From Singulisphaera sp. GP187 (lineage in GTDB: Bacteria; Planctomycetota; Planctomycetia; Gemmatales; Gemmataceae), in the NCBI GenBank assembly GCA_945868575.1, contig CAMBMH010000026.1, forward strand, positions 1 through 33,166: a stretch of 33,166 bases of DNA, written 5' to 3'. The notes beneath the pieces were generated by a model that ran no database searches, was not told the DNA's origin, and worked only from the letters and a program-made list of their open reading frames with translations. The position numbers and the translations under genes are program-made. Below, in pieces: positions 15,001 to 29,000 of the stretch. Within the stretch, counting starts at the first letter, position 1. Each line of letters opens with the position of its first letter.

Positions 15001-18000
15001 ATGCAAGCGGTCGTGTTGACGCCTATTCCAAAGGCGATATATCGCTGAGTCAGGCAAATGGAAACCTTTATCTCGGTCAATTAATTGCCGATGGAACAAT
15101 AAACCTTAATTCGTCTAATAATATCCTGAGCAAGCAAATTGATGACAGGCAGTCCATTGAGGGATTTAACGATAATGGCAAAGGTTGGACCCAAACCACG
15201 GTAAATGGCCAGGTTTCCATTGTCAGCAATGATCTCACTTTCACCAATCAATTGACCTCACAAATCCCCACATCTAATTGGCCCAGTGTTAACAGCCTTT
15301 TCGACTCCAAAATTATTGGGCTAAACTCGGATTTCTCGGTGAATTTCCTTTATGAATCTACAGGGACCAATGGCGGCCTTGCATTCACTCTGATCAATCC
15401 GTTCAAGACCACTTCCTCCTCAAACCCTTCGGGAATGGGCGAACAAGGCTCGCTTTCTTTTGTGCTCAATCTGGGAGATGGCAATGCGAACCCACAATCT
15501 GCCGGATTCGACTATGCAAAACAATCAGGAGCATCCTTTGTCCCCCAAACAATCGCCTCGTTGATTCTCAATTCAGGCGATTCCATCATGGTCAGCCTGA
15601 ACTATTCCCTCGCCAAGCAAACCTTGACAAGCTTCCTTACGGACATGGCGACCGGAGACACCGCGACGATAACTCAAACGGAAATCAATCTCTTGCAAAT
15701 TTTGGGGACCGAAGAAGTTCGTATTGGCTTCACTGCTTTTGGTTCCGGCGCAACAACATTCACCCAAACCATTAGCGAATTCAACCTTACCGATGGCGCG
15801 GCAAATCTTCAGGGAATTTCCCTTAACGCTACAGCCTTAGGATCATTCGGAACCGAATCGAATCCGATCACCATGGTGATCCTGAATGATGTGAATATTA
15901 CAGCTCCAAATGGAGTTTATGCCGAACAGCTTTCAGGGAACATGAACATTGGACAGGTAACAAGCAGTAATGGGGTTGTTTCCTTGAGCGCTCCCGAGGG
16001 TGCGCTTGTGCAATATGTTCCTCAGGCCCCCATGTCAGCAACATCCTTCTCCGAAGGTGCTTCAAGCCTTTCCTTCACTCCTTACAGCGTGAGCGGTGCA
16101 CCCGCCATCTCGGCGCCTGAGTTAAGGTTAAATGCACTTGTGGGAATCGGATCAACACCCTCGCCCCTTCAAACCGAAACCGGAAAAATCTCAGGTCGGA
16201 CTCACTTTGAGAATATCACCGTTTATAACACCGGGGATTTGGCGATCGGATCGCCCAACCATGGCGATAACCTTATCGCGGGAGGAATCATCCATGTTTC
16301 CACGGGAGGAAGCCTTCATGTCCAATCCACGATCAACGCAGGCAATGGGGTCGAACTGAAGGCTGTTTCCGTCTCGGGCAACCCGGCAAGGGTCGTGGCA
16401 GAAACCGGATCAAACATATTCTCCGAAAACGGTACGATTACGATTTTTGGAAATGACGGAATGGAAACTCGTATTGATTCCACCATCGGAAAACTGGCGG
16501 GGCACTCGGCTCAGCAAATCAATCTTTCAACGGGGATCCCAGTCAGCAATACAGATGGTCGGACCACAACAAGTCTTATGGGAGCGATAAACGCAGCATC
16601 TCTTGCGATCCAGGGCGGCTCTCCGAGGCAGGATCTCCATTTTGCAATCGATGGTCTAAAGGGACCAAACAATACCCAATTATACTCCGAGGTATCCGGG
16701 TTTGAATCCATCCATGCCGATGATAGGCTTTTTGCCAATGGGCGTTCTTTTGTTTTGCACCAAAATGGTCTGTCCTCCAACAAAATGAAAATGGTTTTCT
16801 CAAATACGACTTCACTTTTGCTCAATTTGGGATCAGGAAATGACCAGGTGAGCGTTGGCACAACCACAGGGCTAAATGCCTTGGAGATTGATGGCAACGC
16901 TGGCCTTGACAGTTTCTTTATCAGCATGGGAGACAAGCTGCTTGAGGAAATGTCGATCAACGGGGGCGAAGGAATCGACCAAATCGTGGCAAACACCCTT
17001 GGACAAAATGCCTGGGCTGCTAGTGGAGCCCTGCAGACCTGGAACAACAGGGTTCATCATTCTGATATCGAAAACATTCGGATCAATGGTTGTGGAGTTT
17101 TAAACGGGTTACCCAATCCGGTCCAATCTGTTGATCCAGAGCTATACGCGGATGAGACCCCATCCGGCCAGTTTGTTGAAACCGTGTTTGCACAGGTTTT
17201 GGGTCGCCTTCCAAGCGCTGCGAATCTTGAACTCCGCAGTCGTCAACTCGACAATCATTCGGTTTCACGCCTTGCCATGGCAAACGAAATCGGAACCAGC
17301 ACAGAAGCCTGGTCCCTGTTGGTGGATGCCTGGTACAGGAACTATCTGGGTCGTCCCGCGAAGTCCACTGAAGTCGCCCCTTGGGTAAAACTCCTCAAGG
17401 CTGGACAATCCGAGATCGAGGTACTATCCCAAATCCTCTCCTCACGCGAATTTGCAATCAGGATTGGCAAGATCCAAAATGGCATCAATCGTGCCGAACC
17501 TTTCATTACCGGACTTTACAGGCTGGCGATTGATCCCTCCGGACGCCCCGCACCCACTGTACTTGCCAACCTGATGAACCTCGAGAAAACACAGGGCAGA
17601 ACAGCCGTCGCCCGCGCCATTCTTGGTTCCGGCCAATTCCTTGCGCACCAGGCTGAGTCCCTAAGCATCCAGATTGATCATCAACCGGCCAATGACCAGA
17701 TCGTCGCGGAAAGGACTGAACTCCGCTCCTCCACCGAAATGAGATCCTGGCTACTTGGCCGCATCTGGAATGAATCCCCTATTCTTTCCTCAACGCGCTT
17801 CCAGCAACAGATTTTCACCGAAGGACAAGCACCTGTAGCCGTTGGCGCCAATATCCGATTGAGCGATCTCGATGCGCCAAGGAATTTCAACCACGGCTCA
17901 CTAACTGTAAATGTTCAGGTAAATGGAACCCCAGACGACCGACTTTCCATTAAAAATCAGGGGGCGAAACCTGGCCAAATAGGTGTGAAGGGCAATCTGG

Positions 18001-18707
18001 TAACCTATTCCGGCTTGGCGATTGGAACCTTTAGTGGGGGAAATGGTACTGATCCCCTCGTGGTTCTCCTGAATGCCAACTCCACACCCGAGGCAAACCA
18101 GGCCCTTTTGCGCAATATTTCGTTTTCGGTTGTGGGGCAAAACCCCTCCAATCGGCCCAGGTCCATTCGATTTGTAATTAATGACGGCACTGGCCATGAA
18201 AACGCTCAAAGCCAACCATTGACCACAGTCGTCCAGATCCAAACGATCAACAACGGGCCAATTATCCGTTTCTCCCAACCCCAAATCACTTACCGAATTG
18301 GTAATGGTCCAGTAACCATTGACAAAGCGGTAACCATTGCCGATCCAGATAACAATCATTTTTCCGGAGGTGAATTGGTTGTGTCAATTATCGCTAATGG
18401 AACCCCATTTGATCATCTGGCCTTGAACACAAGCGGATCAAGCCGATTGGCTCTTTCAGGCAATCGTGTTTCCATCGACGGCAATCAGATAGGGATCTTT
18501 CAAGGCGGTTTGGGAACCAGGCCACTTGTGATCCAATTCAACGAGAAGGCGACAGGGGAAGCGGTTCAGGAACTGGCCCGCAACATAACCTTCGATAATT
18601 TCAGCACGACCCCCTCCACCTTCACACGAAAAGTCAATTTTGTTTTGAAGGATGGTTTGGGGATGAAAAATACCAAGCAGATGGCCATCATCAGTCTTTC
18701 AAGATAA
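3..18707 (+). CDS. Giant beta-solenoid surface/adhesin-like protein (5'-partial)
   Basis: The reading frame is open from the left edge without a stop, so the start lies outside the window; at least 6,234 residues are present. The first two thirds are Gly/Ala/Ser/Thr/Asn-rich, cysteine-poor repeats alternating glycine-rich strands with 'leveraged' turns, typical of filamentous-hemagglutinin-like beta-helices. Embedded modules in order: three SGTFTL-type repeats (about 1995-3140) interleaved with four TYYA-type units, long solenoid repeats (about 3300-11100), a galactose-binding-like fold (about 11190-11820), two adjacent L-type-lectin-like domains (12427-13665), a third (15151-15800), DUF4214-like helices (17155-17665) and two homologous beta-sandwich tail repeats (17825-18704). 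It probably is exported and mediates carbohydrate adhesion or forms a surface layer; substrate unknown. No C-terminal autotransporter barrel, LPXTG or PEP-CTERM motif is visible. The end at TAA is followed by a hairpin. Confidence 0.9.
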   Translation, partial: GVILNTLNATTGKAGNITLDAPSITINDKAKLLANGSTDSQDGTITITANDLKKNFDLNAFVQFQDLYDFNLSASINVGIGTKISGGKINIIAESGNVFILSNTTSLLLAPLAKVGLELAHYPDLFSLPLAIQVWKPSSSIVINGSIDSSTEVAINSTADANACGKAVFMRTISASYQDKANFDGGGAFGAAVGYFQTDASASIEMNSSANIQSAGPVTLGTTVDNVIKLEAMANKNNGITNTNPEAMAISVATGVLNTTSTIHVQPGANISASGTVQILAEATDENEVEAKTNVYRDGLAGLGAAVVHTNSTVQTIVEGTINSTWTPRTSNTPVTLTFNPSLTVDFASSSLIFPTALTYPNGTPLLFQSVDGATVPGLIPNFTYYAIPNSQNPNALQLASTAENASNGLFISFGNGFPTLTNSNGLKIPITIIYNGPTSGDNSLVSNTICFGYSTLADGKTPVFTDGEAVTFTPVTGKFLGYNDSNGNLLGSLSGNYTVNVVPTNSDSLFPFAIQLLDSQGNVVLLDDNSLIKTADGTIVPIYSFDTAANQLDLNPPSVNPATGEAWTVPPGAPPTILNGQPLEFIGGLSNPVGNLNNNQTYYAVVNPATPGIIQLALNQAQSEAANPAIQNAVPTLLTASNQKFISGSTANFGKNQTLSQTINSNNSYSLWTNANIGSFTLNVTPPQGSATTAAIPYNASAAQVASAINAITGMFVTVSGNGTASNPWLVAGQYQLTVGNFETGVGLVFDYNPNLADGTAMIYQEVPGKPVYGFTNGDTYYAYNQTNPNFVPQLPQYVISLQNTLQNNGTPVNFQLGQWFSDNNGQNYQVSGAAVNEGQLILELPQTALVTGANSSGSTSGSVFSSVVSAGALQCFSFATSGTFTILVETTNGTLTTAPLAFNATASQVEAALNALNGVNVSVTGIGQISSPWTLVGLSYGTVTFDCTNLKDGTYQANILAKELISDTSLVWTTATSGTFTLTLDVNGQNLTTTPIVFDATIGDLISALNALPNVRASVTGAGTAQNPWVITTGYQGIQTGDALVFHDCWNMPSMGMMDGQTYYAVVSSNQFQPQTILLGFAATLQDASASPPTLIQMEPCLTLISAMDNTMTGGNVSLTGESSVSPNGSGVEIEAKLVSMDWATVRVDVGLFYLFGYVTHPSGNWDIWSHAHHGDGQFQNLVHEEQAIKDLIPTGRDVPNEFELSAAPALVFVNNQVQALVGENAVITSFGEVSVKSVIDEILHSESSASIAKSRTGKGDKAVAIAFNGAFVENNSTAIIASNAQVSAEEISVISDILYPFIIRETNISKMRHGEEKTNFANVTATVEKFISNAIFAFAGGISNWLFNNTANTAIIAGDDGDAKGLEKNLDPLLSWTISFSVSVIDINNTNLAQIADGAQINQDPQVADAVEEEQTVTVEAQTTVVQTGVTGMVCLGLSATWLLYGIKTKNVTDALIAPTNSGATLGGSFNYMSLQNSTQALLGGNYSFTAPPNGDGIQSITPYSGTPFASTKVNYGNGGLTVEAITYVTNVLLSQAGGKSSGFGFEGSFAILNMGEQGSSKKKQTTYAQLISDNLPLVISANHGTDGIILVEAKDTSDLWVFSGAVLYGGAKAIGFSGAQIELTRDISASAGTSSSTSAPTQASTFDTNGTVEIMAAANGSINPVSLVGEYAPNGKSIANAAAPGGENVAQAAEEQAASDIHGKWGWAVSGDYSAALINDSVNSWINDLGTFTGQAGNLLIVEATNTTIAHATSGSAAIVNAHGNTGPTVGISGSASVVVYDATVTALIVKATLYNYQLELIADNAKKVGSFSGGMQVSAVTASDLNLAGSVAFNQITNDTQATFQNVTAHDLEEATIEATSADQVWAAAGMLTITWAKRDLADPANPIKPKTVIGVGVSGAMNTLVNTTHATVEDCEIENLEGAMDITAEDFSHSFVFSAGVDITVPAGTAVELGGMWSTTNIAPDTQAQIIDSTITGATGNHPTNLEVIAAFIPVTISFAGYVAIEASKIFSLKENKIGVGVGAGVVVTNIQKNGSNLAQTVASIVDSEIELNLGELTLESYSGNQGDAPSGIVSPLSELPDPDGNNIWSLAIAGSVQGESAPVNAIGVAIAGALIYTTVELETSATIESNSSNPINAEQLTVSSNNTLLVYTDAGGVTVAGQMSEGNLSFGVAIGGAYNSYNSTSSVEVSVNNATITTQSMQVDSLLAPDVTSIAYGVAVDIAVAASVGVSTSLSGAFVYQNATDSAICSITGGTITVDGTTTVNGNSTGDTLSVLAEDQSTYQASSGAGSLAGSGGVGAAVSLAPSAAIGKITLQNTAEAYIGSQSATPATTTTIDATVPVVVEATTKQTVTTTVVAVAASVAISPTGVPLSGGGASSSITTTNKVDSGLLYGTTFNSTLPNSPGNAQSNEGITLSALEDSALTASVGAGALAVGVYGGSLAISLAEISTNDKVNAVIRGATVTTSGTGVSVEAKGTSALATMSVPTAAGFAIGLDGAGGNSNITDSSQFLASIDTGASITTGTPAENYGDLTVGSYSQDSLLAQIFGGDGGLGSIGVFLSDTICNGSSTAQIANAGTITVGDLTVQATGNHSITSDGYSITIGGLTGTGETHQLTYSESISTNINESGATPGKITAHGSATINAQSNTTAIARDSGQAPSSSAQTSYNISGGGIGAYQAISIFIPTISTSINNVNLTVDDNLSISTTASGSNTAQAMAGSGAIVSEEASIAKTTNSPSASLTLGSGKLSASNISVQTVTNMTYDAYADSVDAASVGLSGAVVINTSSPEATVNIDSGITLTSTGQIDIASNNIFQRGNQPNEVDDLMVRVGAGGVLTGYGGNITTTFNPVSTVTIADGVMINSSGSVGGNAGTTSGISILASQTAFLQEDANLATGGLLVSLDWNNTSQTASVTTSVTIGQNATLVATTGSINIGTLVNIDASSSASTTTWGLGGNATSSATSGWTVNQSIETGTGTQIFGLGNVSIVTGENPMNGQVSSINTLAMAYARTRGLIDIPLSSTDDCYLKSNSTLSIGTSSTTQSAANVNLGANPGNNSTLAYWQTQYNRGYIKHGTSNPLTNSSTATINGTVQAGVDYLLDIEVNPAGNAISINGGTPMNLNSNSTFVNQTMAPNSVTPAIPGQSFYPFLAAYNTNYTPNTSSVTDPATAAILRTSVSQTAVNALQLSGLFAQGGNVTIKAGTLSGSASLSAYTPSISITNPSANYLLLDGVSILNGKNSGNISLLKNGGGNLPQGSITTFSNANAQTPPTIIVNQTYPSAVGTGTTSGPGILLEGYFNNPTGNVSITNTMGAIVEIAPIKAVSVTISSPNSAFVLSTPNYYYGVGGNILDAWGKTQQPINGNPTGTTSYTPNWTIPGYAFQPGQTTTGWNANLAATSAADYIYNGNWYNYAPGMKQLNTNYTNQLDTIGYNQLYNSSNYQIIFGNSAPYQGNAQDSQTIQEQTSSTGSGGILAASYPNYFGVGNNSSTQGNLPVFLPDQPIYAQGVDSTISPYLSGGLTAAQVSITALMIDINAPLNVGISNNININLTAALGTTLTQFQTSYQNGNQSSTLYQIPTSYLGGNNIDFTATYNAQTNQITLSPIATTSAQVGAVLAGQIVSTTSWGNINMIGGPGLASINNSTGIPLVVDGINSGSTEVSGTIEIQDSLSGINTKYVYQPGKGLATYSAPNGQPYSSTPNGGTSSSAKTTYNPVSGTLLTQSSSANLWRGLNVGGDAWTNFDNSSNGGFWNFGPQVSNSNFAWNVTSQTNLNPKTYVYPTSADTSTYGGWQFNNPANYGNTTNNAGIATTGSAFSPATPPDADNACAFIQNGGSITQSVYLTPGAYSVSFQAASRTGYANNPIQVSIGGTNLGGTITASSTSFTNYTTSTSFEVTTAGYYTLQLKGTSTGNGNTAATQGNVFIDDVLLYWKSTTAAPSPYTATSPQVQLQYGYNYTTPGGDILPTGSYLLPTGSQFVEYLVATQTTNGYFTANFSGKKAPYENGMPYSTINYNYPTGYSLDLYTYAKADNPIGIDFSALQPGHLSIYSNAAVVIGGGVLFGGNVSINTIGDLTQTSSEDISANEILLITNQGSIGSRQNPIIVSASSGFSVSAFGEEGVYITSPGDIQVDHISTAPLTISGFEGGTNDWSTVNGVAPVVGFSGFQTQGAVIGSNSSSLQLTDGVNSTATSAWSPSKVSTGSFTAQFTYTPSGNKQAGGITFAFQNQSPTALGNVGGALGYTGITGQTVAYELNINNGYQIGTNFVSNNYTGTYQPTGSINVGSGNPIQVNLVYDEITQTITETLVDTVTPATFTRIYENIRLEALLGPSAYMGFTGGDGGATSIQTITNFQFQSNLPQFSGNIMSTIPPGVSNQLSAAWYNTPISLNQSFGAAFVYQAMGENPADGTAFVFQNEGLNALGGAGGLLGYSGINNNQNTAAFEINIYNGHTIGTNFVTNGEWGTYNPTGTINMASGHQILVNLNYDQESGTMYEDLTDLDTGATFSTKYSINLQQALNANTAFIGFTSADGGGFASQTISDFRFGYKSTPLGDVVVSAAGDITSANKSALIQGSNISLTSTSGSIGTNAQAIAIDLNPQSLTNGSITEGVFNASATNNIFVIERLDDLRIGSVVAGGTVSLIALHGDIVEGVSTDASGLNSTEISSANRLKILGILEKNIADSNARTVNTYQGMINRNYLQYWNLLPDGSVQNGVFVVSSSGFGVLEPQVALAYGIPSATNAQVQTWANDTWQQCVTSFESTLAFGPDWQSLPQFVAYSSTYLFVAPQSTVNQLNSGSTSAFGLIAGISLDALQGQNELGSTSHDKANIQAGNLVLTATEGSVGLSKSPVIIPIANIENQTLTPEQKQILTLASQAGEVMMVGTNIFGVTQLYPYGSPPYGIVPTGVQVIISRPLFVDVASGGTTTIKVGNAVVLTEISGAMNIDSISATGTVKLTAEGSITSANSSQTAAITSNDLILTTNAQIGSDGFLNIDASGRVDAYSKGDISLSQANGNLYLGQLIADGTINLNSSNNILSKQIDDRQSIEGFNDNGKGWTQTTVNGQVSIVSNDLTFTNQLTSQIPTSNWPSVNSLFDSKIIGLNSDFSVNFLYESTGTNGGLAFTLINPFKTTSSSNPSGMGEQGSLSFVLNLGDGNANPQSAGFDYAKQSGASFVPQTIASLILNSGDSIMVSLNYSLAKQTLTSFLTDMATGDTATITQTEINLLQILGTEEVRIGFTAFGSGATTFTQTISEFNLTDGAANLQGISLNATALGSFGTESNPITMVILNDVNITAPNGVYAEQLSGNMNIGQVTSSNGVVSLSAPEGALVQYVPQAPMSATSFSEGASSLSFTPYSVSGAPAISAPELRLNALVGIGSTPSPLQTETGKISGRTHFENITVYNTGDLAIGSPNHGDNLIAGGIIHVSTGGSLHVQSTINAGNGVELKAVSVSGNPARVVAETGSNIFSENGTITIFGNDGMETRIDSTIGKLAGHSAQQINLSTGIPVSNTDGRTTTSLMGAINAASLAIQGGSPRQDLHFAIDGLKGPNNTQLYSEVSGFESIHADDRLFANGRSFVLHQNGLSSNKMKMVFSNTTSLLLNLGSGNDQVSVGTTTGLNALEIDGNAGLDSFFISMGDKLLEEMSINGGEGIDQIVANTLGQNAWAASGALQTWNNRVHHSDIENIRINGCGVLNGLPNPVQSVDPELYADETPSGQFVETVFAQVLGRLPSAANLELRSRQLDNHSVSRLAMANEIGTSTEAWSLLVDAWYRNYLGRPAKSTEVAPWVKLLKAGQSEIEVLSQILSSREFAIRIGKIQNGINRAEPFITGLYRLAIDPSGRPAPTVLANLMNLEKTQGRTAVARAILGSGQFLAHQAESLSIQIDHQPANDQIVAERTELRSSTEMRSWLLGRIWNESPILSSTRFQQQIFTEGQAPVAVGANIRLSDLDAPRNFNHGSLTVNVQVNGTPDDRLSIKNQGAKPGQIGVKGNLVTYSGLAIGTFSGGNGTDPLVVLLNANSTPEANQALLRNISFSVVGQNPSNRPRSIRFVINDGTGHENAQSQPLTTVVQIQTINNGPIIRFSQPQITYRIGNGPVTIDKAVTIADPDNNHFSGGELVVSIIANGTPFDHLALNTSGSSRLALSGNRVSIDGNQIGIFQGGLGTRPLVIQFNEKATGEAVQELARNITFDNFSTTPSTFTRKVNFVLKDGLGMKNTKQMAIISLSR
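1995..3140 (+). repeat. Three SGTFTL-type modules plus TYYA units in the giant protein
   Basis: Three divergent copies of a roughly 75-residue module share the pattern SGTFTL..TTAPI.FNATASQV..ALNAL..V.VTG.G....PW. They lie near 1995-2240, 2612-2848 and 2908-3140. They are interleaved with short units containing TYYA (near 1147, 1803, 2338 and 3189), the first two of which lie 5' of this span. Such modules are recurrent beta-rich building blocks in giant surface proteins; the function is unknown. Confidence 0.7.
11191..11820 (+). other. Galactose-binding-like (CBM-type) domain inside the giant protein
   Basis: The translated segment starts near SANLWRGLNVGG and contains GWQFNNPANYG, then AGIATTGSAFSP, AFIQNGGSITQSVYL, GAYSVSFQAASR and FIDDVLLYW. 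The order of a tryptophan-containing strand, a Q-V-L-x-PG-Y-S-x-S-F strand and a terminal F(I/V)DDV strand is the signature of jelly-roll carbohydrate-binding domains. It differs in composition from the flanking solenoid repeats. The ligand cannot be read from sequence. Confidence 0.6.
12427..13095 (+). repeat. L-type-lectin-like domain, copy 1
   Basis: The segment encodes GSFTAQFTYTPSG, then GGITFAFQNQSPTALGN, GGALGYTGITG, VAYELNINNG and ending in MGFTGGDGGATSIQTITNF. The series [FQ]NQ..ALG..GG.LGY.GI, an acidic/Asn 'ELN' strand and a closing GFTGGDGG..S.Q.I..F strand is characteristic of bacterial legume-lectin-like folds. Copy 2 follows immediately and is clearly homologous. Confidence 0.75.
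13099..13665 (+). repeat. L-type-lectin-like domain, copy 2
   Basis: This is a tandem homologue of copy 1. It has GTAFVFQNEGLNALGG, GGLLGYSGIN, AAFEINIYNGHTIGTNFV, ILVNLNYDQESG and FIGFTSADGGGFASQTISDF. Most lectin-core positions of copy 1 are conserved, including GTNFV and the terminal GFT.(A/G)DGG motif. This indicates an internal duplication of about 560-600 bp. Confidence 0.75.
15151..15800 (+). repeat. L-type-lectin-like domain, copy 3 (divergent)
   Basis: About 1.5 kb downstream of copy 2 the fold recurs in divergent form. It opens with an SIEGFNDNGKGWTQ strand, followed by GGLAFTLINP, a G..GSLSFVLNLGDG strand, IMVSLNYSLAKQTL and closing RIGFTAFGSGATTFTQTISEF. The ALG..GG.LGY loop of copies 1 and 2 is replaced by a longer SSSNPSGMGEQGS-type loop, so ligand specificity may differ or be lost. 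Confidence 0.6.
17155..17665 (+). other. DUF4214-like helical region in the giant protein
   Basis: The segment encodes FVETVFAQVLGRLPSAANLE, then WYRNYLGRPAKSTEVAPW, VLSQILSSREFA, LYRLAIDPSGRPAP and ARAILGSGQFLA. The repeated pattern Y..LGR.....E...W followed by I..S.EF is the hallmark of DUF4214-type repeats in bacterial surface proteins. About two and a half units are visible. It is the only clearly alpha-helical part of the protein and may be a linkage or calcium-associated module. Confidence 0.65.
17825..18704 (+). repeat. Two homologous C-terminal beta-sandwich repeats
   Basis: Two units, about 17825-18240 and 18256-18704, align throughout: GSLTVNVQVNGTPDDRLSI with GELVVSIIANGTPFDHLAL, GTFSGGNGTDPLVVLLN with GIFQGGLGTRPLVIQFN, and ALLRNISF with ELARNITF. 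Each ends in a V.FV(I/L).DG.G strand. This is the cadherin/VCBS-like unit often repeated in giant planctomycete and cyanobacterial surface proteins. As the final module it may be an anchor or export determinant. Confidence 0.75.
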
Positions 18708-20740: not shown

Positions 20741-20777
20741 AAAAAAAAGACAGGGTCCCCGCATAACGGGGCCCCTG
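20741..20777 (-). terminator. Rho-independent terminator of the thioredoxin-like gene
   Basis: In minus-strand orientation CAGGG-G-CCCCG, loop TTATG, CGGGG-A-CCCTG forms a strong GC stem with one G/A mismatch. It is followed by TCTTTTTTTT. It lies about 10 bp after the stop of the thioredoxin-like gene and upstream of the desulfurase gene. Confidence 0.9.
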
Positions 20778-20787
20778 GGTCTCTTAC

Positions 20788-21342
20788 TTACTTGGCAGGA
20801 AGAATGCTTTTCAATTCGGCGACGATCTTTTCGACATCGCCATCTTTGAGTTCACCCTTTTTGAAGGCCATGTTGGTCTTAACATTGCGCTTGTTGTAAA
20901 GGATTACGGTTACTTCCGCGTCCTTGGCAATGTTGTAACCACGGGGACCTGCGGGACTGTCCATAGCCAGGACGGTCTCCTTAAGTCCCTCTTTTTCAGC
21001 CATTGCTTTCAATTTCTTTTCGAAGCCTTCCTCATCATTGAGGAACACAACAAAACTGCCCATGGAGCAGTCAGAGTTCTTGACGGTGGCTTCATCGATT
21101 TTCTTGACCAAACTGGTCAAGTTGCCGCTGATCTCGCGTGCGAAGATCATCGCGACAGGATTGCCGCCGTTCTTTCAGACAAGACAACGCTTCTGGCCTT
21201 CATCAGGTCCAGTCGCGTGAAGGGGGTTAAAGGCCCCAGGGCTTTTGCCCACTTGAGGCCCGGACTTGAGCGCACTATCGGCAAATCCGGCACCCACAAA
21301 CAGGGCCAGAGCCAACGCGCCCAAAAGCATACGGGAACGCAT
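20788..21342 (-). CDS. Secreted thioredoxin-like protein with in-frame TGA at a CxxU position (candidate selenoprotein)
   Basis: Reading from ATG 21342 (GGAGG at 21353-21357) gives 184 residues if TGA at 21175-21177 is decoded. There is a signal peptide (MLLGALALALFVGAGFADS), then SGPQVG, the motif C53-L-V-[TGA56]-KNGGNPVAMIFARE, and a thioredoxin-like remainder with KMxSFVVFL-type and AGPRGYNIAKDAEVTVILY segments. Frame and similarity continue on both sides with no frameshift. The only lesion is TGA where the second Cys of a CxxC redox motif is expected, one base away from TGC or TGT. Sec insertion would make a CxxU redox protein acting outside the cytoplasm. Alternatives are a nonsense mutation (pseudogene), a sequencing error, or two ORFs, the second starting at the ATG at 21148-21150. 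No selA/B/D gene is in the window. The role is unknown but probably redox. Confidence 0.75.
21124..21156 (-). promoter_or_regulatory. Candidate bacterial SECIS-like hairpin 3' of the TGA
   Basis: In mRNA orientation GUCGC (19-23 nt after the UGA) pairs with GCGGC (47-51), and UGAUCU (26-31) pairs perfectly with AGAUCA (41-46). This leaves a GA bulge and a 9-nt apical region (UCGCACGCG) that can close further by two C-G pairs with a bulged U. The apical loop lies about 32-40 nt after UGA, near the far end of the distance usual for bacterial SECIS elements. A competing hairpin GCGGC-AAUCCU-GUCGC (8-23 nt) also exists. A G in the first two loop positions, common in known elements, is not clearly present. 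Confidence 0.35.
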
Positions 21343-21359
21343 AGGTTGATATCCTCCAT

Positions 21360-21450: not shown

Positions 21451-22488
21451 TTAATCTCCCCCCAATAGCAGGGGAATCTTTTTGGCAAGAGTTTCCATCT
21501 GGGGAAGCGTATCCCCTGCATGTTCCAGAATGCCCAAATCCTCGGCCCGAACCAGGCCGCCATGAAACAGCCACGCCCGGGTCCTAATGAGCCGATAAAG
21601 CCGAATCACTTTACGGTCGCTGACTGTCACCCGGAAATCCACGGGCATGGCGCGAATAATCCTTTTGAATTCCCCAAAAAGTTCGGCGGGAAAAAAGGTT
21701 TCACGGTCATTGAGCACGGTCTGATGAGCCCCTGTGCCCTTGGTCCGTTCCGAGGAGAATTGTTGGGCCAAAAATTGATTGGCTATTCCAAAATCCTCAA
21801 GAGAACAACGCTGATCTGCCCATGGTGCAACCCCACGCAAGCGATACCCCTCGGCCTTTAGCCCGAGGTCTACCAATTGGGTGAAATGGTCTGTCTGAAC
21901 ACTTTGGCAAAGGACTTTCAGGGAAAATCGATCGCTAAGGGCTTGCAGTTCACCTTGTTCCGGAATTTCATTTGTGGCGCCAAAAAGAACCTCAAGGGGT
22001 ACATCAACCGGTTTGCCATCCTGATACGATTTACGCTCGTTGATAATCGTCAGCAAGAGATTGAGGATTGCGGAATTGGCTTTAAAAATCTCGTCCAGAA
22101 ACGCAACCCGGGCCCGTGTAAGCCTCCCCTCATCCCGGCGCAGGTAACGACCATCCCGCAAAGCATTGATGTCGACAGGCCCGAGGATTTCCGAGGGTTC
22201 GGTAAAGCGGGTAAGCATGTATTCAAAATAGTCGCCGCCTGTCACCCCAAGGGCCTGACAAAACTTGACGACCAGATCGGATTTGGCAGTACCTGGAGGG
22301 CCCACCAATAGCAATGGCTCACGCGAAACGGCCGCGATCATCATCAAATCAAGGATTCGGTCCTTGGCAATGAAATGCCCGGCAAGCACATCGCGAAGCC
22401 CCAGAATCCGGCCCCGGGCCGCCTCCGCCTGTTCCGAGGTAACGGGTTCCCGTTTGTGTTGGGTACCTTTTGGGGATTCTTGGGTCAT
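21451..22488 (-). CDS. MoxR/RavA-type AAA+ ATPase
   Basis: A 345-aa AAA+ chaperone-like ATPase. Walker A is GPPGTAKS (about residues 63-70) and Walker B is VAFLDEIFKAN (about 128-138). The MoxR/RavA-specific segment TRFTEPSEILGPVDI followed by LRDGRYLRRDEGRL lies between them. A sensor-1-like FGATNEIPE and the LSDRFSLK segment follow. MoxR ATPases usually act with vWA-domain partners in metal-centre insertion or complex assembly; here it is the last gene of an operon with an FtsH-like protease and no vWA gene in view. The ATG overlaps the TGA of the 1,173-aa gene by 4 bp (ATGA), so translation is probably coupled. In the predicted conflict systems of this type MoxR is thought to set an activation threshold; that role is inferred here. 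Confidence 0.9.
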   Translation of the reverse strand: MTQESPKGTQHKREPVTSEQAEAARGRILGLRDVLAGHFIAKDRILDLMMIAAVSREPLLLVGPPGTAKSDLVVKFCQALGVTGGDYFEYMLTRFTEPSEILGPVDINALRDGRYLRRDEGRLTRARVAFLDEIFKANSAILNLLLTIINERKSYQDGKPVDVPLEVLFGATNEIPEQGELQALSDRFSLKVLCQSVQTDHFTQLVDLGLKAEGYRLRGVAPWADQRCSLEDFGIANQFLAQQFSSERTKGTGAHQTVLNDRETFFPAELFGEFKRIIRAMPVDFRVTVSDRKVIRLYRLIRTRAWLFHGGLVRAEDLGILEHAGDTLPQMETLAKKIPLLLGGD

Positions 22489-25400
22489 CTTTTCGGATTC
22501 TCCGGAAATTGGTTCATCGGCAAAGTGCTCAGTTTTTCCAAACGGGCCAAATCCTTGCGAATGCGCACTCGCACGAGTTTTTCATCCGCAATTACCCATT
22601 CAGGAACCCGCACAGGCGAAGCCTCGCTGATTGCCAACACAAGCGCTTCGATCCACTCAACCTGGTGGCGCTGGTAGCAAAGCCTTTGGGTCGTTTCCCG
22701 TGGTTTTGGGGCCGTGGCAAAATGGTCCCGAATGGGTTGAATCCAGCGGGGAATGGACACCAATTTTTCCCGGAACACCTGGCCCTCAGCCGAAGCCAGA
22801 GCCTGGATATACGCAACGACCTTGTGACAAAGGGCCTGCCAGGGTTCATTTCGCTGCTGGTTGAAATGCTGAAGGCCTTGAACCTCATCGAGAATCCTTG
22901 TCTCAAGGGATTCTAGGTTCTGGCCGGGGCCCTCCATCAGGCAATTTCCTGCGCAATCCAGCAGAAACCGGGCATGATTTTTGGTTTCGCACGATTCCAG
23001 TCCGCTGACCCCCTGATTGAGGGCTCCGAGGATGGCCTCGACCATGCCCCGCTCGCCCAACTGCAATAAAAGCGGAGTTTGCCGAGTAATAAATTGGAAA
23101 AATCCTTTGTCCATTCCGGGAGATTTCCCTCCCAGCCAATTTCCAATCACCGGAGGACTGCCGAGCCATCGCGTCATCCATTCGAGAATGGCGGGGTTGG
23201 ATTTTTGATAAAAGACCCCCCCGGCGAGAATTCTTGCCCCCATCCTCATGGAAATGGCGCCCGGCTTGGCCACCGCCAGCAGATACTCTTGCGCCCCTTC
23301 CAAAAGTGGAACGGCATCGGCGGCGGGAAGTATCAAAATACGGTCAAGAATTGCGGTCCACCGGGACTGGGCATCGGCCTGGCCGGGGGTGGCGGGAGCC
23401 GACTCACGACATAGCCGCCCAAGGGCCCCCGGATGCCCCAAAGGATCAAGCACCCGGGACAGGGGATCGCCCGCCGGAAAGGCACGGACGGCCTGATGGG
23501 GCTCAAGAATCCGGGAGGTTTCACGGATATAATCCAATGCAAATGTCGTCCATTTGCCAAGCGATGCCGCCTCCCTCAGCCAGGGAGATTCAAGGGGGCC
23601 GGATGCCTGAGTCCCCATGATCGCTTGGGAAACCCGGTGGGCATAGGCACGGGAAAGGAGGGCTCCCAAAGGCTCTCTCGCAAGGTTTTTTTGCGCGGCT
23701 TCTCCCAATTCCCTTGCTTTTTCACCTTCGCCGATCCGGGCAAATCCATACGCAAAGGTCCATTGCGCGATCGACAAAGTCTGACAGGTATCCGTCGCGA
23801 TACCCTGCGAGGCCAACCAATCCATGACGCCTTTGTATGCCTGATGGAGACCAGTACCTGTCCCACGGCCTGAGGAGTCCTGTTTGCTTTTCGCGACAAG
23901 CGGACGCGGCCATTCCGTACCGGGACGGATTCCTTCCTCCAGAACACGGACCAATAGGCGCTCTCCGCCTCCAAGAGCAGCCGTGGAGTTGCCGAATATC
24001 CTGGCCAGGGAGAGCCAGGCAAACCACTGAAGACGCACAGACGCATCCGTACAGTCCCGCAAAAGGATATCGTGGATCGCTTGAAAGGTCGAAAGGCCCA
24101 AATTGGAATCATTTTCGGGGTTTCGGGCCATTGCCAAACCCGTCAAAAACCAATTTTTCTGTTCAGGACCTGCCTTTTCCCCAAGCCAATCCCGGAAAAG
24201 CTCTCCCAGGGGGGGGTGAGAGATCTTTCCGATCAGTCGAGCCAAGGACTCATGCCAAAGCTTCAGATATCTCAAACCGCTATCATGGCCATCTTGACTT
24301 TCAACACCAAAAGAAAACGGTAAACCGCTAGCCCAGTCCCCCTCATCTTTCCAATGATCATGGATAAAGGCGAGTGCCGACCATTCCGTTTTTCCTTCCG
24401 TAATCCAGGCCAAGGCCAACTGTGGCCACAGGGCCTCCCTAATCTGGGAATCCCACGCACCCTCGGCACTTTCAAACGCCTCAACCAAACCTTCCGAAGG
24501 CTCTGCCTTGGGGAGCGTGGCAGAATGGAGAGGCGGATTGGATACAATTGAAGACACAACAGGGGATGTTTCGGCAGATACTGCGTCTTTTTCAGACTTT
24601 GTAGATGTGATATTTTCTATTTTTTTGGAAGGGCGACCTTTTTTCTTTGGTTCCACTTGGGAGGGTTTTTGAATGGAACCGGATTGTTCCGCCGGATCGG
24701 GTCCCGCACCCGGAAGTGATAAATCCGTAACCGGGGTTTCCTCCAAAAGGGGCACATTTTCCCAGGAAAATTCGATCCTGTTTGCCCAGGACTTCAGTTC
24801 TTGGGCCTCCAGCTCGATCAAAAACCGAACAAGATTTTCCAATGGTCCAAATACACTCCTGGCGGCAAAGTGGGGGACAAAGCCTTTATTTTCATCGGGA
24901 ACAAGCCAAACCATTCGCTCTGGCGAAAGGCCAAGTAACTTTCGTGTCATTTCTGGTCCGGGATCGGGATAAATCCGGGACCGGGATGGAAGGTATAAAC
25001 CTGGATTTGACCGTTTATGGAGCAGGGAAAATCCCGGTGGCTCCCCCCCGGGCGAGGGAGGCAATTCCCGAATACGAAGCAGAAGAATGGAGCCTGTTTT
25101 ACCATGATCACCTTCGAGAACCCCATAACGGAAAGATTCACGAAGGTCGGGTGTGGCTCGGGCCAACCATTCCCTCAGGGCATCCAGCTTCCCCGGATCA
25201 ACCACCCACAAATCCGGTGTACCCACAAAGGATTCATCCAGGCGAAGGCCAATGGGAATATTCCAACGGGGCCAAATTGCGCTGGCCGCTTCGTGGGAAA
25301 TCGCCTTGGGAATCCGCCAATCGATATCCTCAAATAGTGGGGTGAATTGTTCAGCGGAGAGGATGATCTCGGTGTGGTCCCTGGTTGAGGATTGGAAAAA

Positions 25401-26006
25401 AATCCGCCAATCGCCGGCTGCTTGGGATTGACCTGCTTTAAATTCACTCTTTAGCAATATCCCAAATGTATTTTTTACAATCCCCTCAAGCGGGTGCCGG
25501 GTTCCAACAGGAATCCAGAGCCCCGGACTGGTTTCCTCAAAAACATCTACACCGCTTTTATCCACCAATCCAAGCCAGGTCAAATGGGGAAGCGAACTGG
25601 CCCACATCCAGTAACTACCTTCAACCGCAAGGTGACGGAGCACTCCATGGTCACCCAGGCGAAACAATTCCAGACAAAAAGGCTCCGCGTCCGCCTGGCG
25701 GGAAAACCGGATCAGGTAGGCTTTACCGATGGAAAAACGGGCGGTTCCCGAGGGAATTGGCCCGAACAGTTTCCACAAACCGTCCAGGGAAACCGCTTTT
25801 GAAGTCGGCGGGTTACCTAAAAGATTCACTCCGGAAACCTGGATTTCCGAGGATTTTAATACAATAAATGAGTCTTCAATTTCGGCGATTTTTCCCGTCG
25901 CGCCATAATTCCACATCACAGAGGGAGCCCCGAGCGCCTCGGAGGAAAATATCCCACCAAGAATTGCCTGGCGCCACGCCTCGACATTTTTGAACCGAAG
26001 GATCAT
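22485..26006 (-). CDS. 1,173-aa multidomain component of the FtsH/MoxR operon
   Basis: No enzyme motif, membrane segment or signal peptide is recognised. The N-terminal ~430 residues are beta-rich and Trp-containing (RFKNVEAWRQAIL at the start; WMWASSLPHLTWLGL; WVVDPGKLDALREWL). A roughly 80-residue charged, Pro/Ser/Lys-rich linker follows, containing KKKGRPSKK, an AT-hook-like basic patch. The remaining ~640 residues are alpha-helical with HEAT/TPR-like character (LQWFAWLSLARIFG; SIAQWTFAYGFARIGEGEKA; ELGEAAQKNLA). The end has EWVIADEKLVRVRIRKDLARL. The gene is coupled by ATGA overlaps to both neighbours. Layout and size match the system-specific 'X' proteins of FtsH/MoxR ternary systems, but I make that match from memory of the family. 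It is a plausible scaffold, sensor or substrate recognised by the two ATPases. No MIDAS (DxSxS) motif was seen, so it is not a vWA protein. Confidence 0.85.
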   Translation of the reverse strand: MILRFKNVEAWRQAILGGIFSSEALGAPSVMWNYGATGKIAEIEDSFIVLKSSEIQVSGVNLLGNPPTSKAVSLDGLWKLFGPIPSGTARFSIGKAYLIRFSRQADAEPFCLELFRLGDHGVLRHLAVEGSYWMWASSLPHLTWLGLVDKSGVDVFEETSPGLWIPVGTRHPLEGIVKNTFGILLKSEFKAGQSQAAGDWRIFFQSSTRDHTEIILSAEQFTPLFEDIDWRIPKAISHEAASAIWPRWNIPIGLRLDESFVGTPDLWVVDPGKLDALREWLARATPDLRESFRYGVLEGDHGKTGSILLLRIRELPPSPGGEPPGFSLLHKRSNPGLYLPSRSRIYPDPGPEMTRKLLGLSPERMVWLVPDENKGFVPHFAARSVFGPLENLVRFLIELEAQELKSWANRIEFSWENVPLLEETPVTDLSLPGAGPDPAEQSGSIQKPSQVEPKKKGRPSKKIENITSTKSEKDAVSAETSPVVSSIVSNPPLHSATLPKAEPSEGLVEAFESAEGAWDSQIREALWPQLALAWITEGKTEWSALAFIHDHWKDEGDWASGLPFSFGVESQDGHDSGLRYLKLWHESLARLIGKISHPPLGELFRDWLGEKAGPEQKNWFLTGLAMARNPENDSNLGLSTFQAIHDILLRDCTDASVRLQWFAWLSLARIFGNSTAALGGGERLLVRVLEEGIRPGTEWPRPLVAKSKQDSSGRGTGTGLHQAYKGVMDWLASQGIATDTCQTLSIAQWTFAYGFARIGEGEKARELGEAAQKNLAREPLGALLSRAYAHRVSQAIMGTQASGPLESPWLREAASLGKWTTFALDYIRETSRILEPHQAVRAFPAGDPLSRVLDPLGHPGALGRLCRESAPATPGQADAQSRWTAILDRILILPAADAVPLLEGAQEYLLAVAKPGAISMRMGARILAGGVFYQKSNPAILEWMTRWLGSPPVIGNWLGGKSPGMDKGFFQFITRQTPLLLQLGERGMVEAILGALNQGVSGLESCETKNHARFLLDCAGNCLMEGPGQNLESLETRILDEVQGLQHFNQQRNEPWQALCHKVVAYIQALASAEGQVFREKLVSIPRWIQPIRDHFATAPKPRETTQRLCYQRHQVEWIEALVLAISEASPVRVPEWVIADEKLVRVRIRKDLARLEKLSTLPMNQFPENPKR

Positions 26007-26272
26007 CCTTGCGACTCGGTCTGGGCCCGACGAGTGGTTTCTGTTGTTTGAACCTGCGAAGTTTGGGACCCGGCTGGAGAAACCCGTTCCACAACAAGCG
26101 GCCCCAACTGGTCGGCGGAGAAAACCCCCGAGCCAACCAACTGTGCGATGAGCTTCTTGTGAAGCGTTTCATGTTCGTGCGAGGTATGATCCTCATCCGA
26201 ATCCAACTTGACGATCAGATCGTGTCGACCGGTGACCTGATTTTGTCTCAATTCCAAGTGTAAAAGGCTCAT
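26003..26272 (-). CDS. Small 89-aa acidic/His-rich protein of the operon
   Basis: The protein begins MSLLHLELRQNQVTGRHDLIVKLDSDED, with two short strands, then an SDEDHTSHEHETLHKK segment rich in Asp, Glu and His, and a helix (LIAQLVGSGVF). It ends in a Gln/Thr/Ser tail. No known catalytic motif is seen; the His/Asp cluster could bind metal. It overlaps the FtsH-like gene upstream and the 1,173-aa gene downstream by 4-bp ATGA junctions, which supports its being a real gene despite the size. A small adaptor or inhibitor for the protease is plausible, but the function is not known. Confidence 0.8.
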   Translation of the reverse strand: MSLLHLELRQNQVTGRHDLIVKLDSDEDHTSHEHETLHKKLIAQLVGSGVFSADQLGPLVVERVSPAGSQTSQVQTTETTRRAQTESQG

Positions 26273-28407
26273 AAGGGCCGCCTTTCCAGGGAGCTTGAAA
26301 CTGGAATTTCCTTTCCTTTCCCTTTCAATTGCAGGGAAAGTTCGGCCGCCTCTATGGATTGTTTTTCCAAAAGAATTTCCGCGAGGGCTTCCACCAGGTC
26401 CTTGTGGGCTTTAAGTATAGAGGCGCAACGAAGCCTTTGCAAATCGAGTATCGTGTTGATTGCGGAGTCCAACCTGTCCCGCTGCTCTATGCCCCAGATA
26501 TCCTGGCGTTCGGTGGTTGCACCCCTGACATTGAGCGGGGCAAGGGTCTCCGAACCGAGTCCATGCACCTCCACAAGTTCGCGGGCGATATGGGTGGCCA
26601 TTTGTATGTCCATCGTGGAGCCAAGGCTGACATCACCCAAAAGCATCCGTTCGGCCTCGCGTCCCCCCATAAGCACACATATCCGGTCGAGCATTTCTCC
26701 GAGGGTGGTCACATGGCGGTTTGGCCGGGAAAAACATTCGACATATCCGGAGGTTCCGACCACATCATCCTGAAGGGAAATTCTTCTAAGAGGAGGACTA
26801 TTGGGCGTCATCAGGGTCGCCAAGGCGTGTCCGGATTCATGGATCGCGACAACCCGCTGCTCGGCTGGTGTCATCTTGGGCAAGCGGTGCATCGCGGTAA
26901 GCGCCGATTCAATATCCGAAGGGGTTGTATCGGAAGTTCGGTCGGCGCGGAGCCTTTCTCGGGCCAGGGACCGGCAAAGTGCCTGGAGGTGGTCACCGGA
27001 AAAATGGGTCCCGGGCGCCGCCCCGGGAACATTATGTCTGGTGCGGTCAACTGCTTTTTCCAGCGCTTCCCTAGAAAACGCCAAACCCCAGGTCTTGTCA
27101 TAAATTTGAAGGATGCTCCTCCTGGCTTCCTCATCCGGATAGGGAATCTCCAGTTGGTACTCAAATCGCCCGGGACGAAGAAGCGCTGGGTCGAGGCTCT
27201 CGGCAAAGTTGGTCGTGCCGATGACAAAAACGAGCTCTTCACGGCGGAATCCATCCATTTCCGTGAGTAGCTGATTAACCAAACTGTGCTCGGCGCCAGA
27301 TCCCAAATAGGTGCCCCGTTTGACCGCAAAAGAATCAATTTCGTCAAACACAATAACAGACGGTGCCGACATGCGCGCCTGATGAAAAATCCGCCTCAGG
27401 TTGGATTCACTCTGTCCCACCCATTTGCTTTTGAGCTCCGGGCCGGAGACAACGATGACCGCGGCGCCCAGCGATGTGGCAAATGCCTTGGCAAACAGAG
27501 TTTTACCAGTTCCGGGAGGCCCCCAAAAGATAATTCCCCTTGGGATTAACCGCTCCAGCCGTTGTCGGGACTCCTCATTGGGAGCATGATCGCGGCGGGC
27601 AAGTATGTCAAGTATCTCCTCATTAAGGTGTTTTTTGACATCAGAATAGCCTCCTATGTCCTTGTCCAGGTCGACATGAGGAATTTCGAGTTGGCCGGCG
27701 ACGGTAGCCTGACGGATCTGGGATAAAGCGCCCCTGGGCGTGTCCGGAAAATCGGGTCCCTCGATCCGCGAAAGAATCTTTCGCAAACGGACAGGATTGA
27801 GACCCGAGACATGTTTGTAAAGGTCGATCGGGGAAAAATCGACGCCGAATTTCGCCATTTCACGCCGCGTAACCAGCTTTACTATCCGGTCCCTTGGAAT
27901 TCCCACCAGGCTTGCTTTCCATGGGAAAAGATGTGCCACCACCGGGGGAAGAGTATAGGACGGGTCGTTGAATCCCAACCAAACCAGTTCCGGATTTTCG
28001 TGAAGGAGTGGGACAACTTCGCGACCCTGTGTGGTGAGATCCTGTTGGCTGACGGTAAGCAGGTCGAGGTGGGGCAAAACCACAACCTTACCATCCACGA
28101 GGCCCCGTACCGCCTCGCGCAATTGACCAACAATCGAATCCATAAGCGAACGCGATTGTCCCGCCGGATCTCCCGCCACGCCGGATTTTCGTTCCTGGCC
28201 ATCAAGATAAATGCAACCAATTCCATCCTTTTTCAGGCGGTCGCGCAGGATCTTGTAGACAAAAACCGTCATATCCTTGTCGCATTCCACCAATACAGGC
28301 ATTCCCGACCGAAGCCGACGGGCCGCCTCTGCGAGCAATTCGCCAAAGGAAGCCTCGACCGCGTCGAGGGGTGTCACATCATCGGGCATTTTTTGCGGTT
28401 CTGACAT
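26269..28407 (-). CDS. Soluble FtsH-like AAA+ protease (AAA + peptidase M41)
   Basis: A 712-aa protein in the proposed frame. The N-terminal ~230 residues have no FtsH transmembrane segments. They look like a degenerate nucleotide-binding module (LVECDKDMTVFVYKIL without a Walker A; VVVLPHLDLL in Walker-B position). Next comes an active AAA+ domain: Walker A GPPGTGKT (about 296-303), Walker B VIVFDEID (about 351-358) and SRH with LRPGRFE. The M41 metalloprotease has HESGH (about 523-527), and GGREAER followed by STMDIQ supplies the third zinc ligand Asp (about 600). It should unfold and degrade proteins in the cytosol, unlike membrane FtsH. I chose ATG 28407, 11 nt after the upstream stop; ATG 28446 would overlap the upstream gene by 28 bp and encodes an unlike N-terminus. 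Neither has a clear SD, so coupling is likely. Confidence 0.9.
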   Translation of the reverse strand: MSEPQKMPDDVTPLDAVEASFGELLAEAARRLRSGMPVLVECDKDMTVFVYKILRDRLKKDGIGCIYLDGQERKSGVAGDPAGQSRSLMDSIVGQLREAVRGLVDGKVVVLPHLDLLTVSQQDLTTQGREVVPLLHENPELVWLGFNDPSYTLPPVVAHLFPWKASLVGIPRDRIVKLVTRREMAKFGVDFSPIDLYKHVSGLNPVRLRKILSRIEGPDFPDTPRGALSQIRQATVAGQLEIPHVDLDKDIGGYSDVKKHLNEEILDILARRDHAPNEESRQRLERLIPRGIIFWGPPGTGKTLFAKAFATSLGAAVIVVSGPELKSKWVGQSESNLRRIFHQARMSAPSVIVFDEIDSFAVKRGTYLGSGAEHSLVNQLLTEMDGFRREELVFVIGTTNFAESLDPALLRPGRFEYQLEIPYPDEEARRSILQIYDKTWGLAFSREALEKAVDRTRHNVPGAAPGTHFSGDHLQALCRSLARERLRADRTSDTTPSDIESALTAMHRLPKMTPAEQRVVAIHESGHALATLMTPNSPPLRRISLQDDVVGTSGYVECFSRPNRHVTTLGEMLDRICVLMGGREAERMLLGDVSLGSTMDIQMATHIARELVEVHGLGSETLAPLNVRGATTERQDIWGIEQRDRLDSAINTILDLQRLRCASILKAHKDLVEALAEILLEKQSIEAAELSLQLKGKGKEIPVSSSLERRPL

Positions 28408-28418
28408 GGAAAGCTGAA

Positions 28419-29000
28419 TCAAACCTCCAGTACGATGGTCATGCATTTACCGGCGGGATCCTCGTCAATAGACCGAATTTGCCCTATCTGCGATGCTTTT
28501 TCACGCAAAGCACGCACGCTTGTACGGTGAACCGCCCGGTCAATAACCTCGCGCAGCGCGGGCAAACTTTCCTCCAGCAGATTGGTCGCCGCCTTTTGAG
28601 CCTTGTCACGCTCGCGCCCCTCTTCGGTTTTGCAATCCTCAAGCACGAGATTTTGCAGCCGTTTTTGCTCCTCCCGGGCAAGGTTCTCATCATCCATTAC
28701 AATACCCGAGCGCAAACCCCGAAATGTTTTTTCACGCTGGGCGGCAGTTTCGACAACAACCCGGCCTGATTGAGGCTCGACAGAAACCACCAGCGCGGTC
28801 CCATCCGCCGCCTGGGTCTTTTTCTCGAGGTGGCATTCGTGCGGTTCAAACCCTTCCGCTATGAGTTCTTCCGTCAAGAGGCTTGCCATCCGCTCCTGGG
28901 GAAGAAGACCAAGCATTGAGATGGTCGATTCGACCCGATCCTGGGCGGCGACCTTGATCTCCAGGGCCTCTTTCACCTCAATGCGGTATGCCCTGCTCAT
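28419..29000 (-). CDS. 193-aa component of the FtsH/MoxR operon
   Basis: The N-terminal half has short strands and helices (AYRIEVKEALEIKV; LGLLPQERMASLLTEELIAEGF; ALVVSVEPQSGRVVVET). The second half is a long charged helical or coiled-coil stretch (ENLAREEQKRLQNLVLED; GRERDKAQKAATNLLEE) ending in a beta segment (GKCMTIVLEV). No catalytic or membrane motif is seen. The first ATG overlaps the TAA of the 403-aa gene by one base (TAATG), which indicates coupling. The two-part architecture fits a dedicated adaptor or regulator of the protease encoded next. Similar short proteins starting with S.(A/S)YRI occur with FtsH/MoxR ternary systems in my recollection; this was not searched. Confidence 0.8.
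   Translation of the reverse strand: MSRAYRIEVKEALEIKVAAQDRVESTISMLGLLPQERMASLLTEELIAEGFEPHECHLEKKTQAADGTALVVSVEPQSGRVVVETAAQREKTFRGLRSGIVMDDENLAREEQKRLQNLVLEDCKTEEGRERDKAQKAATNLLEESLPALREVIDRAVHRTSVRALREKASQIGQIRSIDEDPAGKCMTIVLEV

Follow-up and report, generated by a model that had tools for sequence, protein, structure and literature searches.

The window, by which we mean the whole stretch of DNA that was analysed (33,166 nucleotides), contains a minus-strand reading frame interrupted by one TGA, which raises the question of whether this codon is read as selenocysteine (Sec) and, if so, which RNA element directs its decoding. The minus strand from 21342 to 20788 reads ATG...TAA over 184 codons, with exactly one in-frame TGA (21177-21175, codon 56) in the context MRSRMLLGALALALFVGAGFADS...KRCLV-U-KNGGNPVAMIFARE..., that is, RCLV-U-KNGGNPV around the U. 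The plus-strand reading of 20788-21342 is unrelated to this frame. The locus comprises the following features:

20788..21342, minus strand: probable selenoprotein gene of 184 codons including UGA56, stop codon TAA, whose predicted product is a secreted AhpC/TlpA-like thioredoxin-fold protein bearing the motif C53-L-V-U56 (from the frame, homologues and predicted fold).
21175..21177, minus strand: UGA codon 56, very likely read as selenocysteine; Cys in Cys-type homologues (codon survey).
21184..21186, minus strand: Cys53 codon, invariant partner of U56 in CxxU/CxxC (alignment).
21277..21342, minus strand: N-terminal signal peptide MRSRMLLGALALALFVGAGFAD, residues 1-22, a low-confidence part of the structural model (by inspection, no predictor run).
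21353..21357, minus strand: Shine-Dalgarno sequence GGAGG, 10 nt before the upstream ATG.
21123..21157, minus strand: linker stem (stem A) separating the UGA from the putative SECIS hairpin; it has support from covariation, is not found in all members and is proposed to reduce the effective distance.
21103..21121, minus strand: putative SECIS hairpin CUUGACC-AGUUU-GGUCAAG, with its apical loop (21114-21110) starting 60 nt after the UGA.
20741..20777, minus strand: intrinsic terminator downstream of the TAA, with 11-nt arms CAGGGGCCCCG/CGGGGACCCTG followed by TCTTTTTTTT.

We consider it very likely that this is a true selenoprotein gene in which UGA56 is read as selenocysteine. The frame is shown by computation; Sec insertion is inferred, with no read, proteomic or selenium-labelling data. 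A standard open reading frame (ORF) caller reports only a 120-aa remnant of the gene, starting from an internal ATG at 21150. Purifying selection on the codons 3' of the TGA is strong (dN 0.09-0.10, dS ~1.1, dN/dS ~0.09 for the window gene versus same-genus relatives), and the low dN relative to dS shows that the part behind the UGA is translated. Furthermore, two genomes of the same genus (G069 and G070) retain the TGA at 88-89% protein identity to the window gene. Because of this retention and the purifying selection past the TGA, the frame cannot be attributed to chance. One rival explanation holds that the TGA is a nonsense mutation, a sign of a pseudogene or a base-call error in place of TGC/TGT. 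Such cases do exist in the family (loci L107, with CLYU, and L226, with TGA at the first Cys, both without the hairpin), but TGA at the same codon together with the hairpin occurs in dozens of independent genomes from many genera and orders, and the selection past the TGA and the same-genus relatives speak against it for the window gene, so that this rival is all but excluded.

The neighbouring genes ending at 22485, 26003, 26269 and 28419 (n=4) have TGA as their true stop; the genetic code is therefore standard and UGA means stop in this genome. A UGA reassigned to Trp or some other amino acid, or simply read through with no Sec inserted, would agree with a frame that stays open past the UGA, but is likewise all but excluded by these TGA stops, by the Cys rather than Trp found at residue 56 of homologues, and by the complete Sec machinery of the genome.

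Homologues were identified in 95/95 genomes searched in the family, 101/102 genomes of the order, 238/298 genomes of the class and 56/392 genomes drawn from the phylum (E <= 1e-8), and close homologues occur in Zavarzinella and Limnoglobus records. A first survey of codon 56 yielded TGA in 52 genes, TGC in 42, TGT in two and CGC in one; after removal of duplicates, 125 distinct homologues carried Sec (67), Cys (57) or Arg (one) at this residue. The invariant columns of the alignment (A1) include C53 and residue 56, and this UGA/Cys conservation is shown by computation. Sec-type members contain the motifs CLVU, CPVU, CQVU and CYRU, versus CLYC, CLFC and CYRC in Cys-type members. On a maximum-likelihood tree of the 125 sequences, the Sec/Cys label requires 9-10 changes, at least seven of which are forced by well-supported branches. 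We conclude that the selenoprotein family is old in Planctomycetota and alternates between Sec and Cys, the hairpin being gained and lost with Sec.

Several members depart from these patterns. L083, from the K_Offshore_120m metagenome-assembled genome (MAG), encodes Arg (CGC) at position 56 and lacks the hairpin, being otherwise an intact family member. L174 (G061:C27) is a divergent paralogue with two Cys before the U (CETCU) and a +60 hairpin lengthened to 8 bp. L107 (G066:C17) has TGA as codon 56 within a CLYU motif of the Cys type and lacks the hairpin, probably reflecting a recent Cys-to-TGA mutation or an error, and L226 (G235:C58) has TGA at the first Cys (UYRC), also without the hairpin, which is probably a nonsense mutation or base error. 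These last two loci are useful as negative controls.

The source genome (4.29 Mb, 302 contigs, 90% complete) encodes the machinery for Sec insertion, as shown by computation. A search of the genome itself for tRNA-Sec returned 11 hits with one over the cut-off, a single tRNA-Sec with anticodon UCA (67 bits); two other inspected matches were rejected as tRNA-Ser and tRNA-Leu. SelB was matched at 353.9 bits with its C-terminal domain included, and adjoins SelA (542.5 bits). SelD is also present, and its N-terminal fragment has an in-frame TGA as well, set in the usual UxxK motif. The selD gene is divided between two contig ends (G000:C106 and G000:C203), with the Sec TGA in the C203 part. In the proposed mechanism, tRNA-Sec(UCA) delivered by SelB would decode UGA56 as selenocysteine. 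Within the family, correlating presence or absence of the TGA with that of the machinery is uninformative, since Sec machinery is found in nearly every member. In three incomplete MAGs (G068, G077 and G082; 92, 59 and 88% complete, respectively) a TGA copy was detected, but no SelB or tRNA-Sec passed the cut-off. Of the near-complete genomes without either marker, G094 (100%) and G050 (95%) show only non-TGA copies. Sec machinery has previously been described in planctomycetes including Gemmata (PMC4807772), with selenoprotein candidates for two other genomes listed in the supplement of that study (Table S9).

An earlier note, made from the sequence alone, had proposed a candidate CxxU selenoprotein at this locus, and this reading held on the basis of homologues and Sec machinery, with Sec itself inferred. 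Its single in-frame TGA at 21175-21177 in an otherwise continuous frame was confirmed, with the correction that it gave plus coordinates only and the frame lies on the minus strand. Its good Shine-Dalgarno sequence before the upstream ATG (GGAGG, 21357-21353) and its statement that TGA is the normal stop of neighbours in an unchanged code also held, as did two checks it had proposed, namely Cys at position 56 of homologues with TGA in many independent genomes, and selA, selB, selD and tRNA-Sec in the genome. Its main alternative, a nonsense mutation or base-call error, failed for the window gene, as same-genus relatives carry the TGA. What the note had missed is the displaced putative SECIS hairpin, the more unusual feature of the locus.

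This hairpin consists of a 7-bp stem and an RGUYU loop (CUUGRCC-RGUYU-GGUCAAG or covarying variants). In Sec genes only, synonymous sites are frozen approximately 19-24 codons past the UGA (Leu75 TTG, Thr76 ACC, Ser77 AGT and Val79 GTC); Ser77 is encoded by AGT in 58/58 genes, versus 52 of the 605 Ser codons elsewhere in these genes. The coupling of hairpin and UGA is shown by computation: in the tree set, 66/67 Sec genes contain the hairpin, L107 being the sole exception, versus 2/57 Cys genes. Across the phylum it was found in 83/86 Sec genes, with the loop at 60 nt in 79 genes, at 57 nt in three and at 63 nt in one. Under a synonymous-codon shuffle null the hairpin arises in 2.1% of cases, versus 62/67 observed, and the z-score of the minimum free energy (MFE) of folding is -2.83 +/- 0.07 in Sec genes versus -0.07 +/- 0.15 in Cys genes. 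Covariation is shown by compensatory double changes in four of the seven stem pairs, with a score reached by 0/500 shuffles. Other orders and deep lineages retain paired stems of different sequence at 60 nt (CUUCACC/GGUGAAG, CCUGGCC/GGUCAGG, CUUGGUC/GAUCAAG and CUUGGCC/GGCCAAG) or at 63 nt (CCUGAUC/GAUCAGG). A scan of 95 genomes for the exact 17-nt pattern returned 42 sites, nearly all of them in the selenoprotein family; the matches L156, L157 and L158 were rejected as chance, non-family occurrences with no in-frame UGA at the right place. L239 (G131, same class), a Cys-type CYRC homologue, has a perfect 7-bp hairpin at 60 nt, which is probably the relic of a recent Sec-to-Cys switch. An Rfam scan of the window returned no hits, so the element is not flagged by that curated library.

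The published model of the bacterial SECIS (bSECIS) places the loop 16-37 nt past the UGA (PMC13188914, PMC10778597), and some genes have been noted as not fitting. The hairpin meets the requirement for a 3-9 nt apical loop on a 4-16 bp upper stem (5-nt loop, 7-8 bp), for a G within the first two nucleotides of the loop, with G or U as the usual next base (AGUUU, AGUCU, GGUCU, AGGUU), and for an MFE of at most -7.5 kcal/mol (-13.3 for a 60-nt stretch with the window hairpin). It does not meet the 16-37 nt distance from the UGA to the apical loop (60, 57 or 63 nt in 83 genes). In the proposed mechanism, SelB would recognise this downstream coding-sequence hairpin through its RGUYU loop; this step is inferred, since the data show no more than the parts and that they are conserved.

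The distance also gives grounds for a rival in which UGA56 is indeed Sec but SelB is recruited by a nearer, less conserved structure (a GGN-GGNA-ACC hairpin ~10 nt past the UGA, or the linker stem), the +60 hairpin merely pausing ribosomes or acting in regulation. In its favour, +60 lies outside the published range, a small GG-loop hairpin near +10 is possible in some Gemmataceae members, and the distant CPVU members L260 and L261 (G393 and G553, family f77) carry a classical GGU-loop hairpin (CCUGC-GGU-GCAGG) at 20 nt and lack the +60 hairpin. Against it, the first 10 codons past the UGA show no excess structure (z +0.18 in Sec, +0.15 in Cys genes), and the +60 hairpin follows Sec almost perfectly and carries an RGUYY-type loop, as does selD in these genomes. 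We regard this rival as unlikely and retain the +60 hairpin as the putative SECIS. In selD of the same Gemmataceae genomes the RGUYY loop lies at 32 nt, within the classical range; from this and the 20-nt hairpin of L260/L261 we conclude that the displaced position is specific to this gene lineage and not a property of all selenoprotein genes read by the SelB of these organisms.

The 60-nt gap may itself be folded. Initial folding of the Sec sequences returned either the +60 hairpin or an inner linker hairpin and nothing more. The latter (GATCTTCGC-CGCGAAGTC), the first SECIS candidate, was demoted to an accessory element: it is part of the linker stem (its inner half), does not occur in all members and lacks the loop signature. 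The whole linker stem was detected with a RIBOSUM-weighted consensus of 44 diverse (thinned) Sec sequences, in which two successive stem-loops are separated by a single nucleotide: numbered from the U of UGA (position 0), stem A occupies nt 20-54 and the SECIS hairpin nt 56-74. The same consensus on the Cys set recovered neither. Stem A shows double changes in 11/13 pairs and a covariation score of 0.338 versus 0.226 +/- 0.015 in shuffles (0/500 reach it) and <=0.150 in all slid controls. It is less well supported than the SECIS hairpin. If it forms, ~17-18 nt would remain unpaired between the UGA and the hairpin base, placing the loop effectively ~25 nt away, within the classical range. Thus, in the proposed mechanism, the linker would fold into its own stem, leaving ~18 unpaired nt and an effective UGA-hairpin distance that is near-classical; this role is inferred.

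Alternatively, the +60 hairpin is the SECIS, but stem A merely arises from constraints on coding and GC content, and SelB tolerates a long floppy linker. This view is supported by the pairing of stem A cells in 66% of Cys as well as 79% of Sec sequences, by the omission of the stem from default RNAalifold predictions and by an unenclosed linker length, taken as a measure of compaction, that does not differ from the synonymous null. It is opposed by the covariation score, by a gap between linker MFE and null that is larger in Sec (-17.4 vs -14.1) than in Cys genes (-15.4 vs -15.0), and by recovery of the stem by RIBOSUM-weighted alifold in Sec sequences only. We disfavour this alternative by a narrow margin and hold a folded linker to be the preferred reading.

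AlphaFold2 applied to 19 family sequences predicts an AhpC/TlpA-like thioredoxin fold (pLDDT 87.5, pTM 0.82), a computational result that meets the expectation of a thioredoxin-like beta-alpha fold as a model prediction. Foldseek matches to this model include thiol-disulfide oxidoreductases, the 1-Cys peroxiredoxin AhpE, Bcp, DsbE and ResA (E 3e-8 to 1e-6), and a search of viral folds returned nothing useful. In TlpA and peroxiredoxins, the catalytic Cys comes after the central strand. The order of elements assigned by DSSP is CxxU (53-56), strand (63-68) and helix (73-88), with FARE and no Cys after the strand; the helix past the central strand therefore does not begin with a redox Cys, and no Cys is conserved at 69-73. 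As the CxxU precedes the central strand and no Cys lies behind it, the redox motif appears to have moved, a conclusion drawn from element order without superposition of coordinates. The earlier note's secreted thioredoxin-like protein thus held for the (predicted) fold, with secretion resting only on a signal peptide seen by eye, and its placement of the TGA at the second Cys of a thioredoxin-like CxxC held in part, as the CxxU is off the canonical thioredoxin position and precedes the strand leading into the active site.

Sequence searches of Pfam, NCBIfam and PDB returned no significant match for the family, and the Pfam gathering scores of AhpC-TSA and Redoxin were not reached, the best being one Cys homologue with 16.7 bits to AhpC-TSA (cut-off 26). 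The sequence relation to AhpC/TSA is weak at most, and a proposed activity rests on fold and motif. In the proposed mechanism, the CxxU of the exported product would form a reversible selenenylsulfide and reduce peroxides or disulfides outside the cytoplasm. On balance we lean towards an extracytoplasmic selenol/thiol oxidoreductase or peroxidase recycled via a C53-U56 selenenylsulfide, both activity and location being inferred. Upstream lies bpMoxR, which adjoins the selenoprotein gene in some ten genomes without identifying a function.

The window contains further features of note. The bpMoxR, fvmX7 and FtsH-like genes at 21451-28446 (minus strand) are parts of MoxR/FtsH 'ternary system' families. 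A NifS-like cysteine desulfurase gene (~20656-19484, minus strand) has an apparent ATT start (GGAGGGTTGGGTC-ATT-CCGTATCTGGAC) where the same-genus loci L023 and L024 have ATG; the ATT could be a rare start or a base error, and ORF callers would begin the gene later, at the ATG at 20596. A giant ORF (3-18707, plus strand) of more than 6,234 codons with repetitive, surface-protein-like sequence is open at the 5' end of the contig.

A bolder reading of these results is that Planctomycetota contain an undescribed class of bSECIS, with the SelB-recruiting hairpin 60 nt from the UGA and the gap folded by a stem-loop, and that this element serves an ancient family of exported, as yet uncatalogued selenoproteins whose CxxU active site has been relocated. 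We find this reading more convincing than its negation, if only modestly; against it, the evidence that SelB binds at 60 nt is indirect, coming from conservation and the sequence of the loop. The bSECIS has been described at 16-37 nt from the UGA, and gene finders depend on that range. If the reading is true, a natural 60-nt element and linker stem kept across the phylum would show that distance is judged via folded RNA and not by nucleotide count, and what sets the UGA-SECIS distance becomes a directly testable question. A SECIS that leaves ~17 codons past the Sec outside the hairpin might also find use in selenoprotein engineering.

The family is apparently uncatalogued and its SECIS geometry apparently undescribed, which is not certain given that only open-licence literature was considered. 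The open-licence literature searched (a scope that excludes subscription articles and supplementary files such as Table S9 of PMC4807772) describes neither the family nor a displaced bSECIS, and the family is not listed in the consulted sections of the 2026 prokaryotic selenoprotein catalogue (PMC13188914) and the deep-Sep paper (PMC12013277). NCBIfam of June 2026 contains no model for it, and the missing model could possibly be explained by ORF callers seeing only the 120-aa remnant. The family shares the CxxU redox motif and the existence of Cys homologues with catalogued CxxU families (SELENOW-like, AhpD-like, GrdA, Trx7/PDZ NF041199, CC/Se motif NF041239 and others), and none of the catalogued selenoprotein families (NCBIfam/Pfam models and those named in PMC13188914) matches it. 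Structure comparison relates it to AhpC/TSA, TlpA/ResA and DsbE redoxin-fold proteins (PDB 4nmu, 3gl3, 2h1g and 4x1u), which share the thioredoxin-like fold and include extracytoplasmic thiol redox proteins; unlike in these, the CxxU/CxxC lies before the central strand and not after it, and there is no significant sequence match. The selD gene of the same Gemmataceae genomes has the same SelB-type loop (RGUYY) in the same organisms, but at 32 nt. With the known bSECIS (PMC13188914 Fig. 2, after Zhang and Gladyshev 2005) the locus has in common an in-frame UGA, a downstream stem-loop in the coding region, a 7-8 bp stem and the presence of SelB, tRNA-Sec, SelA and SelD. It differs in that the loop lies at 60 nt instead of 16-37, that a second stem-loop is located between UGA and hairpin, and that across the phylum the hairpin hardly varies in sequence.
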